Notes under the pieces: model-generated | The model's database searches: none | What the model saw: only the letters and a program-made list of their open reading frames with translations | What the model was told of the DNA's origin: nothing | Position numbers and translations under genes: made by a program | In this document: one piece after another, positions 5,658 to 28,653 of the stretch | How positions within the stretch are numbered: position 1 is the first letter of the stretch | How the letters are laid out: the number at the start of each line of letters is the position of its first letter | Virus record (IMG/VR): IMGVR_UViG_3300020439_001943 | Span: 1-28,653 of that record | From: a virus | Strand: one strand, 5' to 3' | Length of the DNA stretch: 28,653 bases

Positions 5658-6868
5658 TAGAATAATTCTTTTATAATCTTACCAGAGTTGGCGATCTTCA
5701 TAGGTCTGCCGTTATTACTGGTAAATGTGGTTGTTAGTGAAATGTCAAGAGCTTTGCACACTGAAGCCATCACATCTTGAGAAGTGTAAGGTTCTGTATC
5801 GACGCGCGTACCATCTGAATTAGTAGCACCAACAGCAATACCTCCATTTATTCCACCTCCACCAACGACAACGCTCCAACTTCGTGCCCAATGGTCACGA
5901 CCTGCGTTCTGGTTGATTCGAGGAGTTCTACTAAACTCTCCCATCCAAATAATTACTGTGTCTTGTAAAAGTTCTCTCTGTTCTAGATCTTCAAATAGCG
6001 CACTCATACCTTGATCTAACATAGGAAGTTTGTTATCTCTTAATGTAGCATGAATATTCTGATGATTGTCCCATCCTCCAAGATTAACTTCTATAAACGG
6101 CACACCAGCTTCTACTAGCCGTCTAGCCATCAGACAACCTTTACCAAAGTTGTTGTTGCCGTATCTTTCTTTTACATTTTCTGGTTCGCCTGCAACTTTC
6201 AAAGCATCCATCTGCGAGCTTGTCAGTACATTAAATGCTCCCTTTAGAACTGATTGATGTTCTTTTGCTAGTGAACCTCGTCTTTGGTTTATGAAATTAC
6301 TTTCAATTGCATCCAAAGCGTAAGCTCTCTGATAAAATCTCTGATCTACTTTTACATCTAGATTTCTAATTCTACCATCGCTATTCACGCTAAATGGAGC
6401 ATATTTAGAACCAAGAAAACCAGCGCCTATACTTCCTCCACCCACAGAAATAAACTTGGGTATAGAAAGATCTGGTCTTGGCGACTGATGTGAGATTACT
6501 GAACCATAACTAGGATGATCTATGCTTGGGTTCGGAACATATCCAGTATGCATGTAATAGCGACCACGCATATGGTCAGCTTCACGAGTACTCATACTTC
6601 TAATAATAGCAGCGTTATGCATCTGTTTTGCCATGAGAGGCATATGTTCGCATATCTGCACATCTCCAGAGGTATTGATGGGACGGAAAGGGCCTCCTGT
6701 AGGCGCTCCGGGTTTTAAATCCCAGATGTCCATAGTTGAAGGGCCACCGCCCATCCACAGAAGAATAGCGGACTTTCCTTTCTTTTTAAGTTCATCTTCG
6801 TTAGCTTTAACAGTTTCTGCTAATGATAGCGCACTAAAAACAGATGTTAGAAAGGTACGTCTTTGCAT
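5657..6868 (-). CDS. DUF1501 family protein, copy A (403 aa), Tat-exported
   Basis: This is a full-length DUF1501 (PF07394) protein. It opens with a twin-arginine leader (MQRRTFLTSVFSALSLAETV), implying export as a folded protein. Family motifs are present in order: MGGGPSTMDIWDLKP (39-53), HTGY (107-110), GGWDNH (264-269), GEFSRTPRINQNAGRDHW (310-327) and VGGGGINGG. DUF1501 belongs to the alkaline-phosphatase/sulfatase-like superfamily and is abundant in Planctomycetes; its activity is not established. This copy keeps the Asp-rich first motif, so it is a candidate for an active metal site. An AGAGGTGA site precedes the ATG. It is the last of four paralogues in the operon. Confidence 0.9.
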   Translation of the reverse strand: MQRRTFLTSVFSALSLAETVKANEDELKKKGKSAILLWMGGGPSTMDIWDLKPGAPTGGPFRPINTSGDVQICEHMPLMAKQMHNAAIIRSMSTREADHMRGRYYMHTGYVPNPSIDHPSYGSVISHQSPRPDLSIPKFISVGGGSIGAGFLGSKYAPFSVNSDGRIRNLDVKVDQRFYQRAYALDAIESNFINQRRGSLAKEHQSVLKGAFNVLTSSQMDALKVAGEPENVKERYGNNNFGKGCLMARRLVEAGVPFIEVNLGGWDNHQNIHATLRDNKLPMLDQGMSALFEDLEQRELLQDTVIIWMGEFSRTPRINQNAGRDHWARSWSVVVGGGGINGGIAVGATNSDGTRVDTEPYTSQDVMASVCKALDISLTTTFTSNNGRPMKIANSGKIIKELF

Positions 6869-7473: not shown

Positions 7474-8756
7474 TATATTAACTCCTTTAATGGTTCTCTG
7501 TGATCTAGAAGATATTGAGGTCTTCCAGTATTATCTAATAAGGTTGTAGACATTGTATCAATACCTAAACCTCTATACATTGTAGCGCATATTTCTTGAA
7601 TATGTACTGGTCTAGATTCAGGAATTTCGCCAAGTCTATTTGTTTCTCCTACAGTTTGTCCGTGATTAAATCCTCCTCCTGCGAGCAAAGCACAAGAAAC
7701 TTGAGGCCAGTGATCACGACCACCCTTTGGATTAATCTTAGGCGTTCTACCAAACTCTCCCCACACTACAACAAGTGTATCATCAAGCATGCCACGTTGG
7801 TCAAGGTCTCGAACAAGTGCTGACACGCACTGGTCAAGCTTTGCACCATGGTCTCTAACCAAGTCGAAGTTAGAGCCATGACTATCCCAGCGACCATAAG
7901 AAAGAGTAACAGAACGAGCTCCAGCTTCAACAAGCCTTCGCGCCATGAGAACATGTTCATTAACAGTCGGTGCTCCATCATATTGGAATTTAAAGGGTTT
8001 ACCGTCTCCATACATTTCTCTAATCTTTGGGTCTTCCTTTGACAAATCCAAAGCGTTTACCAAAGAGCTTGATGTCAAAACACCAAAGGCTTCTTCAGTA
8101 AAAGTATCTACATTAACAGCTTTGTCTATAGTTCTATTTAGTTCTGCAAATCCTGTTAATAGGTCTTTGCGATTCTTGAATCTCTCAACTTCCATATTAA
8201 GTTTGAGATCCTTCATCATCTCACCATTTGGCTTAAATGGCTTGTGTGTATCTCCAAGATAGCCAGCTCCTCCAGCCTCTGACCAAGGGTTGTGCTGTGT
8301 AGGTTCTGCCAATCCTACCGCAACTGGTACGGCAGGATCAACAGATCCCAAAATTTTAGAAGCGCACGCTCCGATGGCAGGATAGTTGACTCCAGATACC
8401 ATGTCTTTCCGGCTCCATCCGGTGACACATTGGTATCCGTCATGAGAACCATCCGAACCGACAACGGAACGAATCGCAGTAAATTTATCAAACATAGAGG
8501 CGATTTGCGGAAAACACTCTCCGATGTATACTCCCGCCACATTGGTCGAGATCGGTTTGAATGGGCCACGGATTTCCGATGGTGCTTCAGTCTTAATATC
8601 CCACATGTCTTGGTGCGGTGGGCCACCGCCAAGAAATATATTGATAACTGCCTTATGAGACGTTCCACTTTCCTCTTGGGCACGCAACACTTGTGGCATA
8701 GAAAGAATACCGAGACCACCTACGGACAAAAAACTTCTACGTGATAAATTAAGCAT
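7473..8756 (-). CDS. DUF1501 family protein, copy B (427 aa), Tat-exported
   Basis: This is a full-length DUF1501 paralogue with a textbook Tat leader: SRRSFLSVGGLGILSM (5-20), with a likely signal peptidase site after LRAQ. Motifs are GGGPPHQDMWDIKTEAP (43-59), CVTGWSRKD in place of the usual TGY segment (110-118), GRWDSH (288-293; the first Gly of the usual GGWD is kept but Trp is preceded by Arg), GEFGRTPKIN (333-342), GGRDHW (345-350) and LAGGGFNHG. It retains His and Asp in the first motif, so a metal-dependent hydrolase site is plausible. An AGAGGTG site precedes the ATG. A cysteine-rich small gene lies just upstream and a secreted Pro-rich gene just downstream. Confidence 0.9.
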   Translation of the reverse strand: MLNLSRRSFLSVGGLGILSMPQVLRAQEESGTSHKAVINIFLGGGPPHQDMWDIKTEAPSEIRGPFKPISTNVAGVYIGECFPQIASMFDKFTAIRSVVGSDGSHDGYQCVTGWSRKDMVSGVNYPAIGACASKILGSVDPAVPVAVGLAEPTQHNPWSEAGGAGYLGDTHKPFKPNGEMMKDLKLNMEVERFKNRKDLLTGFAELNRTIDKAVNVDTFTEEAFGVLTSSSLVNALDLSKEDPKIREMYGDGKPFKFQYDGAPTVNEHVLMARRLVEAGARSVTLSYGRWDSHGSNFDLVRDHGAKLDQCVSALVRDLDQRGMLDDTLVVVWGEFGRTPKINPKGGRDHWPQVSCALLAGGGFNHGQTVGETNRLGEIPESRPVHIQEICATMYRGLGIDTMSTTLLDNTGRPQYLLDHREPLKELI

Positions 8757-8985: not shown

Positions 8986-10284
8986 CTAAATAATAAGGTC
9001 TTGTCGAACTGTACCACCGTCCACAATTTCTATAGGACGGTCACCCGGAGCCATAAGCTCCTTATCGGAAACGATTCCGATTCTATTGTATATTGTTGCT
9101 GCCCAATCTTCTACTGTCATTGGGTTATCTTCTGGCTCGCTTGCAGTAGCATTAGAGCTACCATAAACCATTCCGTTTTTAATGCCGCCTCCAGCCATAA
9201 CTACACTGAAAACCTTTGGCCAGTGGTCACGACCAGCGGTAGCATTAATCTTTGGTGTACGACCAAACTCGGAAGCTAAACAAACTAACGTGGAGTCAAG
9301 CATACCTCTATCGCTAAGATCTTCAATAAGAGCCGCAAGCCCTTGATCTAGTGCTGGTACTTGTCCACGAATACCATTTTCTATATTGTTATGCATATCC
9401 CATCCACCATAGGTGAGTGTGACAAAGCGAGTTCCAGCTTCTACTAAACGGCGAGCTAATAACATGCGAGCGCCAGCAGTATTTCTGCCATACTTATCTC
9501 GCATCGCATCACTTTCCTTATTAATGTCAAAAGCATCTCTGGCTTTTTCACTGCTAATCAAACTGTAAGCACGATCATAAAAGCTGTCTACGGCATCCAG
9601 AGAGTCTGACTTTTCTTTGGTAGCAAAGTAATCGTTGACTGCACTAAGCATTTTTCTTCTTGTTCCAAACCTACCATCGTTTACTCCGTTTGGCAGTTTC
9701 AAATCTCGAACTTGGAAGTTGCCACTTGCCGGATCAGCTCCTAGACTAAAGCCTGAGAAGGAACTACTTAAATATCCAGTACCTGCATATTCATTAGGTT
9801 GGTTTGGGATGCAGACATATGGAGGAAGGTTTTGACGAGGCCCAAACTCATGTGCAACCACTGAACCCATTGATGGATACTGAAGGGCTGGGCTAGGTCT
9901 ATAGCCAGTAAACATATTATGTGTGCCTCGTTCATGAGCTGCTTCTCCATGAGTCATACTGCGGATGATTGTCATCTTGTCTGTGACTTTAGATGTTTTG
10001 ACCATCATCTCATTTAATCTAGTTCCGGGAACTATGGTTTCAATGCTAGACATTGGCCCTCTGTACTCAAGAGGGGCAAAAGGTTTAGGATCAAATGTTT
10101 CTTGATGAGCCGAACCTCCCGGCAAATATATATAAATAACAGACTTTGCTGGGCCTTCAATGCTTTCATAAAACTTCTGGTCAGCTTGAGCTTGCTCCAT
10201 GCGGAAATAATCCGATAGACTCAAGCCCAAACCACCCAAAAAACCAACTTGCAGAAAAGATCTGCGATTACTTTTGCAATTCAT
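8986..10284 (-). CDS. DUF1501 family protein, copy C (432 aa), Tat-exported
   Basis: The start is set at the ATG at 10284 (MNCKSNRRSFLQVGFLGG). It has an AAAGGA site, and the Tat motif NRRSFLQVG falls where expected. The longer reading frame upstream only overlaps the preceding gene in another frame. DUF1501 motifs: YLPGGSAHQETFDPKP (53-68; Gly-Gly-Gly-Pro is changed and the first Asp is Glu), TGYRPSPALQYPSMGS, GGWDMH, SEFGRTPKIN, TAGRDHWPKV and MAGGGIKNG. The altered first motif suggests a different specificity from copies A and B. It is full length for the family and exported as a folded protein if the Tat leader works in the host. Confidence 0.9.
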   Translation of the reverse strand: MNCKSNRRSFLQVGFLGGLGLSLSDYFRMEQAQADQKFYESIEGPAKSVIYIYLPGGSAHQETFDPKPFAPLEYRGPMSSIETIVPGTRLNEMMVKTSKVTDKMTIIRSMTHGEAAHERGTHNMFTGYRPSPALQYPSMGSVVAHEFGPRQNLPPYVCIPNQPNEYAGTGYLSSSFSGFSLGADPASGNFQVRDLKLPNGVNDGRFGTRRKMLSAVNDYFATKEKSDSLDAVDSFYDRAYSLISSEKARDAFDINKESDAMRDKYGRNTAGARMLLARRLVEAGTRFVTLTYGGWDMHNNIENGIRGQVPALDQGLAALIEDLSDRGMLDSTLVCLASEFGRTPKINATAGRDHWPKVFSVVMAGGGIKNGMVYGSSNATASEPEDNPMTVEDWAATIYNRIGIVSDKELMAPGDRPIEIVDGGTVRQDLII

Positions 10285-11206: not shown

Positions 11207-12462
11207 TATAATATTACCTTTCCTTCACCTTCTAGGAGGTATCTTGGTCTGCCAGAGTTATCAACTCTCTGTGTGCCTTTATCTATTCCAAAATGATCAA
11301 ATAGGGTTGCTTGTAAATCCAAAGGCCCAACAGGTCTTTCCGTAGGACTGTAAGATCTATCAGCCTCTCCGATGGTTCTTCCTGTTGGATACTCTCCACC
11401 GAACATAAACATCGGTGTGATTGATGGCCAGTGGTCACGACCGGCATTTGCATTAATTTTAGTTCTTCCAAATTCGCCAGTTACTACCAATAATACTTTA
11501 TCATCTAAGCCTCTATCGCACACATCCTGCATAAAGCCTGCAATAGCTTTATCGACAGGAGGTACTCTTGTCTTTAGAGCATTTGATACATTGCTATGCA
11601 TATCCCATCCGCCATAATGAAGCGTAACAAATCTTGTTCCGTATTCTACAAGACGACGAGCAAGAAGAAGTTGTTCACCAATATCTTTTGCTTTGGTTGA
11701 CCCATAAAGAGCTTTTGTTTTTTCATTTTCTTTTTCTACTGCAAATGCATCTTTTGCAGAACCCAATATTACATCGTATGCTTGCCCCTTGTAGAAGTCT
11801 ACTGAGTTGGCGCTTCTGCTTGCGACTGCGGCGGCATCAAGTCCTTTGAGCAGGTCTTTTCTTGTAGAGAATCTATCAAGTTCAACTCTCGGGGTAAGGT
11901 TGTCTTTATTGGATGGATCGAAAGGTTTATATGCTCCACCGAGCCAAGCACCTTCATCACCTTCGATTTTACCTTGTTTAACATATGTTGGTACTCCATT
12001 TTCTTCGTTGTTAGCTCCATAACATGCAGATACAATAGATCCGAATGAAGGATACTTTGCCATAGAAGTGGTGGTTCTTTCTGGGTTATACTGTCCCGTC
12101 ATCATAAAATGAGTCCCTTGTCTATGAGAAGAATCTCTATGACTAAAGGAATTCACCACATTCATTTTGCTAGTATGTTTAGCCAGCTCTGTCCAGTCAG
12201 CGCCTAAATTTATATTCGTTTTAGCATCATAAATAGAACCGTTTACTGGTTGCCATTCGGTAGGCACAGTGTCTGTAGGAGCGTGAAATGTTTCAAACTG
12301 TGTTGGCCCTCCTCCAAGCCATAACCAAACAACTGCTTTATCTTCATATGCATCAAAACCTTCTTGAGCAAACGCTTTATCGGAAAGTCCGATAGAACTC
12401 ATAGCTGCGCTGATGCCACCTACCCTTAAAAAGTTTCTTCGATTGAAAATAAAGTCTAACAT
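11206..12462 (-). CDS. DUF1501 family protein, copy D (418 aa), Tat-exported
   Basis: This is the first DUF1501 gene in transcription order, directly after the tail-tube-like gene (10-base gap, AAGGAGA site). The Tat leader is FNRRNFLRVGGISAAMSSIG (6-25), with a likely cleavage at AFAQ. Motifs: LGGGPTQFETFHAPT (49-63), where both usual Asp positions are replaced (Glu and His); TGQYNPERTT; GGWDMH; GEFGRTKINANAGRDHW, one residue shorter than the usual GRTPKIN; and FGGEYPTG. The GRDHW core is kept. It is full length but the most diverged copy, so it may be catalytically altered. The 3' end meets the DUF5824-like gene at a TAATG-type junction. Confidence 0.9.
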   Translation of the reverse strand: MLDFIFNRRNFLRVGGISAAMSSIGLSDKAFAQEGFDAYEDKAVVWLWLGGGPTQFETFHAPTDTVPTEWQPVNGSIYDAKTNINLGADWTELAKHTSKMNVVNSFSHRDSSHRQGTHFMMTGQYNPERTTTSMAKYPSFGSIVSACYGANNEENGVPTYVKQGKIEGDEGAWLGGAYKPFDPSNKDNLTPRVELDRFSTRKDLLKGLDAAAVASRSANSVDFYKGQAYDVILGSAKDAFAVEKENEKTKALYGSTKAKDIGEQLLLARRLVEYGTRFVTLHYGGWDMHSNVSNALKTRVPPVDKAIAGFMQDVCDRGLDDKVLLVVTGEFGRTKINANAGRDHWPSITPMFMFGGEYPTGRTIGEADRSYSPTERPVGPLDLQATLFDHFGIDKGTQRVDNSGRPRYLLEGEGKVIL

Positions 12463-21510: not shown

Positions 21511-22551
21511 TTATTCTAAGCCTTTTATGAATTTTTTAGCCGAGTTCTCCCAAGAAAATTCTTTAGCTGTGTAAATACCGTCAATATTTGTTTCCAGATT
21601 TCCTTCTTGTTTTAGTGTGTGTATCGCCCTCATGTAGGTAACAACTTGTTCTAGCTGGTTACTACCCAAAGAAGCCCATGAGCCTTGACCATGAAACCAA
21701 ACTCCATCTTGAGCCGGTTCAAGATTGTCTATCGAAACCAAGTGACAATTCTTTGCATTGCAAAACTCCGTGTGTGCTGAATATTCGGTAGCTATAACAT
21801 GTTTGCCACACGCCATCATTTCCAAAAGTTCCAGATTCCAGCCTTCAGCTCTAGCAGGAAAAACTCCACAATCAGCTTGCTTCATAACATTGTAAACATC
21901 TCTGTGTGTGTTCTGTCTCGGTATAATCCTAATCTTATCGCCAAGAGGAGAATCTTTATAAAGCTTTTCCCATTGTGATTGTTGTTCAGGTGAATAGAAG
22001 GGATTGCTACACATCATCCACAATTCAACCTCATCCGAGTGGTCAAATGCAGCGTTAAAACAATTTACTAGTATATCATGACCCTTTCTGACTTCCCATT
22101 TTCCGCAGTTGAAGAATACCGTTTTTGGTCTAGTAGAATCGTGAGGTTTGAAAATTTGCGTATCTACACCAAGAGGCACCACTTTAGTTTCAACTCCGGT
22201 TTGTTGTTCTACTATTTCTTTTGCCCATTTTGAGCAGGTGAAAATTCTGTCATTATATTTTATGCTTTGTTTTTCCAGCTCGTTAAATCTTTCAAGCTCG
22301 AATATAGGAAAACCAACGTGCATACCTTTTCCGACGTGTCCATGTAATTCATGTTGATGCCATATTTTGACAGAAGGATTCTTTTCATGACATTCTTGCA
22401 TGGTGATCTTTTGTATAAACGGATCTGACATCTCCGGTTTGCCAATCGGAAGATAGTTTACCTGATTGCCCTGCGACAATAAATTCTTAATTATATTATA
22501 ACTTGCGATACCATATCCGAGATTGTTTATAGGCGCTGTAATATTAATCAT
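21511..22551 (-). CDS. GT4-family glycosyltransferase (346 aa)
   Basis: A GT-B fold glycosyltransferase of family 4. The N-terminal domain begins MINITAPINNLGYGIASYNI with a glycine-rich loop. A SKWAKEIVEQQTGVETKVVP hinge-adjacent segment (about 110-129) and PLGVDTQIFKP follow. The C-terminal donor domain has FFNCGKWEVRKGHDILVN and the family signature FPARAEGWNLELLEMMACGK (about 234-253) with the E-x7-E type glutamates. It probably transfers a sugar from an NDP donor to a glycan on the cytoplasmic face. It overlaps the radical SAM gene by eight bases and ends the glycan cassette. Confidence 0.9.
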   Translation of the reverse strand: MINITAPINNLGYGIASYNIIKNLLSQGNQVNYLPIGKPEMSDPFIQKITMQECHEKNPSVKIWHQHELHGHVGKGMHVGFPIFELERFNELEKQSIKYNDRIFTCSKWAKEIVEQQTGVETKVVPLGVDTQIFKPHDSTRPKTVFFNCGKWEVRKGHDILVNCFNAAFDHSDEVELWMMCSNPFYSPEQQSQWEKLYKDSPLGDKIRIIPRQNTHRDVYNVMKQADCGVFPARAEGWNLELLEMMACGKHVIATEYSAHTEFCNAKNCHLVSIDNLEPAQDGVWFHGQGSWASLGSNQLEQVVTYMRAIHTLKQEGNLETNIDGIYTAKEFSWENSAKKFIKGLE

Positions 22552-24982
22552 TTTGACCTCTAGCTATTTTGTAATAATGATAAACATTTCCAAGATCAAC
22601 CTTAGAACTATCAAAAATGTCGTTATCTAAAACATTTAGGAAATCTTTGTGTAGTTTATTGTTTTCCATCCATACGGCATGGTCTTCAAAGACTTCGCGC
22701 TTCCAAGTTCCCCAGTCTGTTATAATTGAAAAATTCATCTTGTCTACACCGTCCAATGAATTAGCCAACTCAACACATGCAGGCATCTCTTTATAGTTGT
22801 TCTTTTGTACTACTGAGTCAATCCTAAGTATGTTAATTTTACCTTCAACTCTCAATCTTGACAACATTTCTATGTTCTTCATCAGCAAGTCCCAATCGCC
22901 ACCTACACGTATCTTATCATAAGTTTCTTTAGTGGCAGCGTCGATAGACACAATTACCTGATTGATATTGTCATGGCATTTGTGTAGCATGTTCCACATT
23001 TTTTCAGTAAGCATGACTCCGTTTGTTTGTAGGTTTATCATTATTTCTGGGTGCTGTTTCCCATCAAAATTTATCAAGAAGTCCCTGAAAACTTTTGAGC
23101 CGAACGGATCGCCAGAGCCAGTGATGTTTAGCGAAGTATGACCTTTTGGTTGCTCGTTTAGAACAAAATCCATTATCTTGTTTTGTATCGCAACAGCATC
23201 ATCATATTTCTTTCCCGAAGTATGAAGTATCGAACTTATCCTACAGCTAGGACATTTTAGATTGCAAGAATCGTCCCACAAAAAGTTGACATGTTTAATT
23301 CTATCCATGTCAGTAATATTGTTTTCTATTATATGCTTATGTCTTTCTTGTGTGACATCTTCTCTCTTAGGCAGCGCATCAACATTTTGTAATCTCGGAC
23401 ATGTCTTTTTGTTGCAGTAACTGAATGAGCCGTCTAAAATCGAAGCTCTAATATTTTTTGCTTTATCAGAATTGAGTATCTCTGTTATTGATGACTCGTG
23501 TATATTTCCGATGCTTTCATCCATCCAGTAGGAACAGCAGGTTCTAACATTCCCATGCTCATCAACTTCAAAATTATCGAAGGGTTGTTCGCAGAAAAGC
23601 GTTGAAGTGTCTACGATTGGAAGAGAACTATTATCAGCATCTTCGTATATGTCACTTATTTTAGTTTTTTTTTGATCGTTGAATGGGTCATAGGTCTCAA
23701 AGTCAACCCATTTCTCTCCATTCCATATGATATTTAGCCTGTCGGTTATGACAGCATCAGTCCCGTACATTGTTTTAATGAAATTAGAATCTATGAAGCG
23801 CAGTTTGCCATCATAGAAAACTTCTTTGTATCCATACTTTTCAAGGTTATCATCTAGTTGTGATATATCTACATCATTTAAAAGGTTAAATAACCCGCCC
23901 AAGTTGACATGCATCATTTCTGAATTATGCACTAGATGCGCTCTAACATGTTTATTCAATTCAGGGTCAAAAACAATATCAAGCAACTCTTGGTGTCTTG
24001 GGTGTTTCTTCTCTTGAACTGCTCGGTAAAACCAAGTCTCAAAGAAATCTGGTGAACCTATCAGGAAGTCAGGCTCATAGGTTTGAAACTGAACACATTT
24101 CACATCATACTTTTTACAAAGATCGACAAACTGTAACACTTCAGAAAGATTATCATTCTGCACAACAAAACTTGTATTGAAAGTTAGTATCTGACCAGTA
24201 GCCTGAAGGTGCTGTGCGAATTCCAAATTTTCTAAAAGCATATTCCAGTCGCCACCTTTTCTGACAACCTTATATGTTTCTTCGGTTGCGGCATCAATTG
24301 ATATAGAAATGTGCTTTATCTTTTCTTTTGAATAGTCACTTAGAGAGTCCCAATACTTCTTCATCAGAAGCCCATTTGTCAATATTTGAATTGTCTCTAG
24401 ATTTGGAGCGTCTTCTTCTTTCAGTGTGCGGAGGAGGTCTCTGAATACAGGACTAGCAAAAGCATCTCCAGAGCCTGTAATACAAAAAGATTTTGCATTA
24501 TGGAAGGCTTCTTTCTTTAACTTGTCTTGTATATTTAGAATCTGCTCGCGCTTTTTACCAGACTCCATAATTAGCTCTAGCCTACAAGATGGACATTCAA
24601 GATTACACGATCTATCATATCCAAAGTTTATGTCTAACGGCGTATGATCTAGTTTTGTTTTACCCTCAACAATGTCGTCATGTATAAGATCCCAGCCTCT
24701 GTGGCTATTAGTATTTCCTATCTGGTAAAGAGTCTGAACGCAGTGAGTCTTCGTTTCTAAGTGCGGGCATACTTCTCTGTTGCAATACCTGTAGGAGCCA
24801 TCAAGAATTGATCTTCTCAGCTCTTGAGCCTCTTCACTGTTCCATACTTCTTCTACTGACTTGTCTTTTATATTGCCAATTTCATAATTATTGATCCAAG
24901 ACGGACAACAGCAACTAACTCTACCGTCGTCGTACACTTCAAAAAATTCAAAAGGTCTTGTGCAATAATGTTTTTCATTCAT
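22544..24982 (-). CDS. Tandem SPASM/radical SAM protein (812 aa)
   Basis: Two homologous halves lie in one chain. Each half opens with a SPASM-like cysteine region: CTRPFEFFEVYDDGRVSCCC (7-26) to YCNREVCP (66-73), and CEQPFDNFEVDEHGNVRTCC (464-483) to YCNKKTCP (522-529). A radical SAM core follows, with the CX3CX2C 4Fe-4S motif at Cys126/130/133 and Cys573/577/580 (both SCNLxCPSCR). Each core then shows ITGSGD(A/P)F, LTNG or QTNG, and SIDAATxETYxxxRxGGDW. SAM cleavage to a 5'-deoxyadenosyl radical is expected at both sites. About 130 residues between the halves have no known domain. SPASM enzymes modify peptides, proteins or sugars; within a glycosyltransferase cassette, a sugar or glycoprotein substrate is likely but unproven. 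ATGA overlap with the sulfotransferase gene. Confidence 0.92.
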   Translation of the reverse strand: MNEKHYCTRPFEFFEVYDDGRVSCCCPSWINNYEIGNIKDKSVEEVWNSEEAQELRRSILDGSYRYCNREVCPHLETKTHCVQTLYQIGNTNSHRGWDLIHDDIVEGKTKLDHTPLDINFGYDRSCNLECPSCRLELIMESGKKREQILNIQDKLKKEAFHNAKSFCITGSGDAFASPVFRDLLRTLKEEDAPNLETIQILTNGLLMKKYWDSLSDYSKEKIKHISISIDAATEETYKVVRKGGDWNMLLENLEFAQHLQATGQILTFNTSFVVQNDNLSEVLQFVDLCKKYDVKCVQFQTYEPDFLIGSPDFFETWFYRAVQEKKHPRHQELLDIVFDPELNKHVRAHLVHNSEMMHVNLGGLFNLLNDVDISQLDDNLEKYGYKEVFYDGKLRFIDSNFIKTMYGTDAVITDRLNIIWNGEKWVDFETYDPFNDQKKTKISDIYEDADNSSLPIVDTSTLFCEQPFDNFEVDEHGNVRTCCSYWMDESIGNIHESSITEILNSDKAKNIRASILDGSFSYCNKKTCPRLQNVDALPKREDVTQERHKHIIENNITDMDRIKHVNFLWDDSCNLKCPSCRISSILHTSGKKYDDAVAIQNKIMDFVLNEQPKGHTSLNITGSGDPFGSKVFRDFLINFDGKQHPEIMINLQTNGVMLTEKMWNMLHKCHDNINQVIVSIDAATKETYDKIRVGGDWDLLMKNIEMLSRLRVEGKINILRIDSVVQKNNYKEMPACVELANSLDGVDKMNFSIITDWGTWKREVFEDHAVWMENNKLHKDFLNVLDNDIFDSSKVDLGNVYHYYKIARGQND

Positions 24983-27532: not shown

Positions 27533-27568
27533 CAAAAACCATTGTCAGGCTAGTTGCGGTAGTACACA
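27533..27568. repeat. Direct repeat copy 1 (3' end of GT11-like gene)
   Basis: This shares 16 then 10 consecutive identical bases with the copy at 28316-28351, interrupted by few mismatches. The copy covers the last codons (YYRN-stop on the minus strand) and first downstream bases of the GT11-like gene. Confidence 0.75.
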
Positions 27569-28287
27569 GGTTTCCATCCATCAACTTCATAAAACGTAGG
27601 GTCATGCCAAGTTTTGTCTTCATAAAACGCTGGATATACTATATTATTTTTACAGCCTAGCGCGCCAATAAACCAACTGTAAGACCCGTGACTTAATATT
27701 TTGTTCGTAAATCTCGAACCAAATTTTAATGTTTCTTCTTTTCCAGCATCATATATTTCAAAGTCAAATTGTTTGGCAAAATTTTTAACTGTGTCGCTGT
27801 GAACTTCATTTGATGTAACATACTTCTTAAAGGGGGTAATCTTAGGACGGTCAGACATGGCAATTTCCGAGTATACTTTCCTAAGAGCAGACTCATAATA
27901 ATCCATCCCAAGCTGAAACTGTGAGCCGAGATCGCCAAGTCTCATATGAACAAAAATGCCCTCTATGGGTTCTTGATTAATTACTTCTTCCTTGAAAACC
28001 AAATCTAAATTATCTACAACAAAGTTGGCTGCGTTTTTACATTGTAGATATTCATTATTTGAACAGCTAAGGCTCATAATTTCTGGATATATACTATATT
28101 TGTCATCTTCTACATCAACAATTTTTAATTTGTTTTGATCTAAGAACTGAAAGATAGAAGCCGAGTAATCTCCTCCGTATCTTGCAAAAGATATTTCTCT
28201 GTTTTGTTTAGCCGAAAAAATAGAATAGATACTACAAATAAAAAGTTTGTTGCAAAACAAACCGGCATTAACTGGAACTACAAACAT
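27550..28287 (-). CDS. GT11-like alpha-1,2-fucosyltransferase-family protein (245 aa)
   Basis: The N-terminus VPVNAGLFCNKLFICSIYSI matches the GLGNQLF-type opening of GT11/fucosyltransferase GT-B enzymes. GIFVHMRLGDLG (110-121) is the GDP-fucose-binding H.R.GD motif. Near the C-terminus LSHGSYSWFIGALGCKNNIV corresponds to the S.FSWW.A.L segment of the family. At 245 aa it is a little shorter than usual (about 280-300). The donor is likely GDP-fucose or a related GDP-deoxysugar, which fits the ColD-like and GT10 genes at the other end of the window. A TTTGAGGG site precedes the ATG. It follows the tmRNA by 66 bases with no clear promoter between. Confidence 0.75.
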   Translation of the reverse strand: MFVVPVNAGLFCNKLFICSIYSIFSAKQNREISFARYGGDYSASIFQFLDQNKLKIVDVEDDKYSIYPEIMSLSCSNNEYLQCKNAANFVVDNLDLVFKEEVINQEPIEGIFVHMRLGDLGSQFQLGMDYYESALRKVYSEIAMSDRPKITPFKKYVTSNEVHSDTVKNFAKQFDFEIYDAGKEETLKFGSRFTNKILSHGSYSWFIGALGCKNNIVYPAFYEDKTWHDPTFYEVDGWKPVYYRN

Positions 28288-28315: not shown

Positions 28316-28351
28316 CAAAAACCATTGTCAGCTTAGTTGCGGTTGTACAAA
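28316..28351. repeat. Direct repeat copy 2 (remnant 3' end downstream of tmRNA)
   Basis: This matches 27533-27568. On the minus strand it reads as the end of a coding frame (LYNRN-stop), followed by the same CTGACAATGGTTTTTG flank, but no gene body lies upstream, only the tmRNA. It looks like the leftover tail of a lost paralogous gene. Confidence 0.75.
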
Positions 28352-28353
28352 AG

Positions 28354-28653
28354 TGGAGGTGGCGGGAATTGAACCCGCGTGCCACATAATATTATTATTA
28401 ACTTCTACATGTTTAGTATAATTATTATCGTCCATCATACTAGACTATCCAAGTTATCGGAGTCAAACAAATTATTGTTATCATATATATTTAGTTCAAG
28501 TATATAAACTCTAGCAAAATTATCTGCGTCATCACTATTTGGTTTGCGGGGCTGTGATACCCGTGCCGCTAGGCGGCGAGTGCGAAATTCTCTTCTACAC
28601 TTAAAAAAATGAGAACGATTTTTTAAGTAGCCATTCGTTCAACTACTACATGC
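28354..28653 (-). ncRNA. ssrA: tmRNA (5' end outside window)
   Basis: Transfer-messenger RNA for rescue of stalled ribosomes. The 3' tRNA-like part is clear: CATGTAGAAG, T-arm GCGGG-TTCAATT-CCCGC (28362-28378) and acceptor strand CACCTCC with discriminator A at 28354. CCA is not encoded. The tag frame on the minus strand (28598 to 28572) is VEENFALAA, stop TAG at 28569-28571 in a GCCGC/GCGGC hairpin. The pseudoknot before the tag is visible: AGTAG (28643-28647) with CTACT (28626-28630), and GAACGA (28635-28640) with TCGTTC (28613-28618). The right edge begins at GCATG, so about the first 50 bases, including the 5' acceptor strand, are missing. As I recall, planctomycete tags read AEENFALAA; here the first residue is Val. 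Confidence 0.92.

Follow-up and report, generated by a model that had tools for sequence, protein, structure and literature searches.

Does the end of the virus record IMGVR_UViG_3300020439_001943 carry a working tmRNA gene, and if so, from which host was it taken and what might it do during infection? The window (the whole stretch of DNA analyzed, 28,653 bases) is the entire virus record, and its edge is the edge of the record. Phage tmRNAs have been described before, as has the use of GUA (Val) as resume codon. A survey reports tmRNAs in 402 of 18,146 phage genomes, with 53 of 133 unique structures in two pieces, mostly from marine or aquatic sources (PMC9004378), and a 2025 tmRNA database is described as holding 79 phage sequences and as naming three main permuted clades, those of the alphaproteobacteria, the betaproteobacteria, and the cyanobacteria (PMC11915505). 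Among the titles listed in literature searches, none was on the phage tmRNA lineage described here, although members of it may be in the supplement of the 2025 database. From its sequence and those of its relatives, the window gene is probably a working, phage-borne ssrA of planctomycete origin.

A one-piece tmRNA gene at the edge of the record

Scanning the window with cmscan gave a match to RF00023 at positions 28351 to 28653 on the minus strand (68.4 bits, E value = 7.2e-25, gathering score 47, truncated at the 5′ end), and alignment with complete homologues placed a one-piece tmRNA gene (ssrA) at 28354 to 28653 (minus strand). The gene is not permuted. At its resume site lies an open tag frame (28569 to 28598, minus strand) that starts with the resume codon GTA (Val), reads VEENFALAA, ends in a proteolysis signal, and is followed by the stop codon TAG (codons from 28598 to 28569: GTA GAA GAG AAT TTC GCA CTC GCC GCC TAG), which places it among the RF00023 tmRNAs. 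The model match and the frame read directly from the sequence thus confirmed the original prediction of a tmRNA with this tag, and ARAGORN made no tmRNA call on the window. Because the record ends there, about 40 nt of the 5′ end of the tmRNA lie outside the window. The T arm and the 3′ acceptor strand CACCUCC occupy 28354 to 28385 (minus strand; sequence and Rfam alignment), and since CTTTT follows the discriminator A at 28354, CCA is not encoded, as had been predicted. Pseudoknots 2 to 4, in the middle of the tmRNA, aligned poorly to the Rfam model. Where it overlaps the complete gene of viral contig L001 in the alignment, the window gene shows two substitutions and one indel. DNA searches of a phage collection gave no match to the window end and none to the tmRNA of the related contig L004, and with that of L007 as query most matches were short (35 bases or fewer).

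We evaluated pseudoknot 1, which had been predicted to be intact, across 30 sequences (10 one-piece phage genes including that of the window, 8 permuted phage genes, and 12 planctomycete genes). In the window, helix S1 pairs 28643 to 28647 with 28626 to 28630 (span 28626 to 28647, minus strand), and helix S2 pairs 28635 to 28640 with 28613 to 28618 (span 28613 to 28640, minus strand). Pairing was found in 150 of 150 cells for S1 and 179 of 180 for S2, and several pairs had changed in both partners; a manual shift of one gap had put the helix into register, which biases the alignment towards structure; controls with slid partners paired in 18 to 85 of 150 cells (S1) and 20 to 71 of 180 (S2). 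The pseudoknot is thus intact and covarying. The predicted 5′ end, GGAGGTG, proved wrong: in the nine complete one-piece relatives measured, it reads GGGGGTG or GGGGGCG. Each of 17 phage genes (9 one-piece, 8 permuted) has all seven acceptor stem pairs, with G-U at 3-70. The G3-U70 pair is the identity mark for alanine; it was present in all nine complete one-piece relatives, while the window's own 5′ strand is outside the record.

Gene content of the record and its phage relatives

The window encodes PhoH, a class I ribonucleotide reductase, a sigma-like protein, a glycosyltransferase, and a radical SAM protein. An 812-aa protein at 22544 to 24982 (minus strand) has two radical SAM and two SPASM stretches and adjoins the glycosyltransferase. 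Directly downstream of the tmRNA, a 245-aa ORF (27550 to 28287, minus strand) with no Pfam match and no PHROG match is kept beside the tmRNA in relatives (cluster c14). No structural phage gene was identified within the window, and a weak match to phrog_2 falls in the PhoH gene. This gene content, together with a planctomycete-like tmRNA and genes for DUF1501 proteins, could suggest that the record is a piece of planctomycete chromosome and the tmRNA the cell's own, a reading that we consider highly unlikely. The window's PhoH and ribonucleotide reductase match PHROGs, and the flank of its tmRNA is common to the record of L004 (G327, 145 kb), with which it shares six proteins at a mean identity of 86% and which encodes a terminase (match at about 1e-24). 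A terminase match of the same order was found in the record of L011 (G334, 139 kb), and contigs L008, L014, and L016, like L004, have proteins around the tmRNA in common with the window. The terminase-bearing record with the common flank supports the claim that the tmRNA is phage encoded.

Tags of the one-piece relatives

The exact DNA of the tag occurred in 5 viral contigs and a degenerate version of it in 16, of which 12 have one-piece genes (L001 to L006, L008, L009, L011, L012, L014, and L016, of which L009 is truncated on the 3′ side) and 4 have permuted genes (L007, L010, L013, and L015). Relatives gave full-length tmRNA matches above the gathering score, and ARAGORN called the tag VEENFALAA in nine complete one-piece relatives. 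With the resume codon left free in the tag pattern, 21 contigs matched; the 5 extra ones (L018 to L022) contain ANEENFALAA frames, and all 5 match the permuted model, 3 of them also the betaproteobacterial model. A tag-free search with the pseudoknot 1 pattern yielded 13 one-piece genes. Related phages with a disrupted tag frame would have spoken against the prediction, and none were found: the frame was open in 13 of 13, with V as first residue in 10 and A in 3. The three with Ala are AEENFSLAA in L319 and L320 and AEKNFSLAA in L321, and since these are close phage relatives, the first tag residue is labile. The single-residue difference from AEENFALAA, put forward as a marker, is therefore not fixed.

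We rejected the idea that the Val resume codon is fixed in these phages, given the Ala in L319, L320, and L321, and the idea that it is a new feature. The tmRNA of Helicobacter pylori is reported to use GUA for valine at the same point (PMC2862035), although that RNA is chromosomal, has another tag, and belongs to another lineage. CCA is encoded in the one-piece genes of L319 and L320 and absent in all nine other one-piece relatives measured.

A nonfunctional piece of host ssrA, captured by chance, could also leave a tmRNA-like sequence in a phage, for example through integration at ssrA, which is described as a prophage integration site (PMC9004378), and the window copy is indeed incomplete. 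This explanation seems distinctly unlikely: the truncation coincides with the record end, and complete homologues, conserved neighbors, and compensating base changes are found across diverged phages.

Evidence for a planctomycete host

The tag had also been offered as a host marker, with AEENFALAA given as the planctomycete type. When we scanned a genome collection (one genome per species, 84,980 species), VEENFALAA occurred in one contig, SKZY01000144.1 of a Planctomycetaceae metagenome-assembled genome (G001), which has bacterial-looking ORFs and a full tmRNA match (157.7 bits). Among 294 genomes sampled from its phylum, counting G001 itself, V- or A-EENFALAA was found only in G001. AEENFALAA as a general planctomycete tag was rejected accordingly (0 of the 293 other genomes). 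At 129 planctomycete tmRNA loci, 8 without an ARAGORN tag and 121 tagged, the first tag residue was A in 108, G in 6, V in 5, and D in 2. As a lead, the marker claim was supported, by evidence other than that first offered: AEENFALAA as a general tag failed, whereas the tag of G001, the nesting in the tree, and the DUF1501 genes point to planctomycetes.

The planctomycete tmRNA family of SKZY01000144.1 has the same one-piece form, pseudoknot 1 helices, GGGGG start, and T arm as the phage genes. Its tags AEENLVLAA, AEDNLALAA, and VEDNLVLAA resemble the phage tag, and all 28 family rows, like the window gene, lack an encoded CCA. The window tmRNA differs in being phage borne, and cells of the family seldom have a Val resume codon (2 of 25 tags sampled, besides G001). 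In a reduced tree (96 rows), the phage genes formed a clade (98/96) inside the rows of G001's family and were thus nested among planctomycete tmRNAs; in the full tree (139 rows), some long permuted rows fell among the phage genes. The rows included 45 of 96 other planctomycete rows, randomly chosen, and 47 other permuted rows, all in the full tree and 6 in the reduced one. Of the relatives then known, 9 of 12 with one-piece genes and 8 of 9 with permuted genes were also used, after removal of near-duplicates or cut genes; L021 and L022 (wrongly cut) and L319 to L324 (later finds) were not in the trees. Because the tree holds few one-piece tmRNAs from outside the planctomycetes, a nearer source in another phylum may exist.

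Clustered DUF1501 (PF07394) paralogues lie at 5660 to 6775, 7476 to 8654, 8995 to 10149, and 11209 to 12339 (all minus strand). The domain was found in 13 of 22 viral records searched, window included (four matches in the window); of 40 genomes sampled from the phylum, 23 had it (two with 35 matches), versus 2 of 14 named controls; one member searched by tblastn had no match in the phage collection (50,697 records). Taken together, the tag, the tree, and DUF1501 indicate a likely planctomycete host, and the phage most likely took its tmRNA gene from such a host.

Permuted relatives, some at the same locus

Eleven viral records (L007, L010, L013, L015, L029, L032, L251, L267, L269, L323, and L324) match RF04321 above the gathering score, with the acceptor half upstream of the coding half, which is the gene form of RF04321 and the clade models RF01849, RF01850, and RF01851. 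The acceptor half ends 12 to 13 nt before the coding half. Their tags are VEENFALAA (4 records), VEKNFALAA (2), AEENFALVA, GVENYAMAA, ADESLALAA, and ANESLALAA (2).

Short intervening segments do not set this group apart, since at least 122 short-junction loci were found, most of them of other types. Short-junction permuted tmRNAs of many kinds (L172 to L287) are common in viral contigs, and some have long tags like that of cyanophage S-CAM1. In L322, near many tRNA genes, a coding half at about 4675 (minus strand; AGRNVAMAA) has no acceptor half directly upstream and no RF04321 match.

The two gene forms share a locus. Before a dCMP deaminase gene (cluster c12; PF00383, phrog_174; 62% identity over 168 aa between L011 and L029), the tmRNA is one-piece in L011 and L012 and permuted in L013, L015, L029, L032, L269, and L323 and L324 (the last two read from sequence), which suggests permutation within this phage lineage. 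For both pieces of all eight permuted phage genes measured, profiles of the one-piece phage and planctomycete family genes outscored that of the other permuted set, whose scores are lowered by the diversity of that set. Seven of these eight genes keep TAARCATGTAGA, a 3′ motif similar to the one in the one-piece phage genes, and none of the eight encodes CCA, whereas 39 of the 47 other permuted rows do. Permuted tmRNAs were not found in planctomycete cells of the phylum sample (0 of 119), and 199 genomes of the family gave three matches below the cutoff, two of them one-piece genes and the third overlapping a one-piece gene (G320).

These profile scores, the synteny, the lack of CCA, and the lack of a permuted planctomycete gene favor a new permutation in the phage lineage. 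However, approximately unbiased (AU) tests (167 to 168 columns) did not reject a single clade of all permuted rows (P value = 0.181 with all rows and 0.499 with the reduced set), and the P value for one clade of phage one-piece and permuted rows was 0.33 (full set). Gene replacement at one locus may also explain the two forms. On balance, we lean towards a host-derived, planctomycete-type one-piece ssrA that was newly permuted at the same locus in this phage lineage, where both forms persist.

Proposed role during infection

From these features, the phage tmRNA would be made during infection, receive its CCA from the host enzyme, and be charged with alanine by host AlaRS through G3-U70. No phage SmpB gene was found in 19 records searched, most of them fragments, and the partner of the RNA is presumed to be host SmpB, to which it would bind. 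It would then enter ribosomes stalled on broken mRNA, as in ordinary trans-translation, and Ala-VEENFALAA would be added to the stalled peptides, the ALAA ending directing them to destruction by host ClpXP-type proteases. A GUA resume codon is reported to work in Escherichia coli, where the tag often breaks after the GUA-encoded Val (PMC2862035). Such a cycle may serve to free ribosomes and recycle amino acids during the destruction of host RNA, and it is plausible that the phage tmRNA keeps translation going while host mRNA is destroyed.

Alternatively, the phage RNA might be a decoy that titrates SmpB or blocks host trans-translation, like the tag-less, tRNA-like RNA of mycobacteriophage DS6A, a type of phage RNA reported as a tmRNA inhibitor (PMC4131195; PMC11915505). 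We regard this as unlikely, because a decoy needs no tag and open frames with a small hydrophobic end were found in 13 of 13 tag-free one-piece hits and in the 11 permuted records. Like the window gene, the ssrA of the Methylophilales phage Melnitz is a tmRNA gene in a large marine tailed phage, but its RNA is a two-piece alpha type with the tag ANDNYVPVDYALAA, whereas that of the window is one-piece and of the planctomycete type.

This lineage adds planctomycete-linked phages to those with their own ribosome-rescue RNA, and a phage tmRNA can serve as a host clue for contigs without a near isolate. If the new permutation is true, permuted tmRNA would have one more origin, in addition to the alphaproteobacterial, betaproteobacterial, and cyanobacterial clades. 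Moreover, if the permuted relatives arose in place, these phages would offer a natural series of one-piece and two-piece genes at one locus, in which the transition between the two forms could be studied directly.
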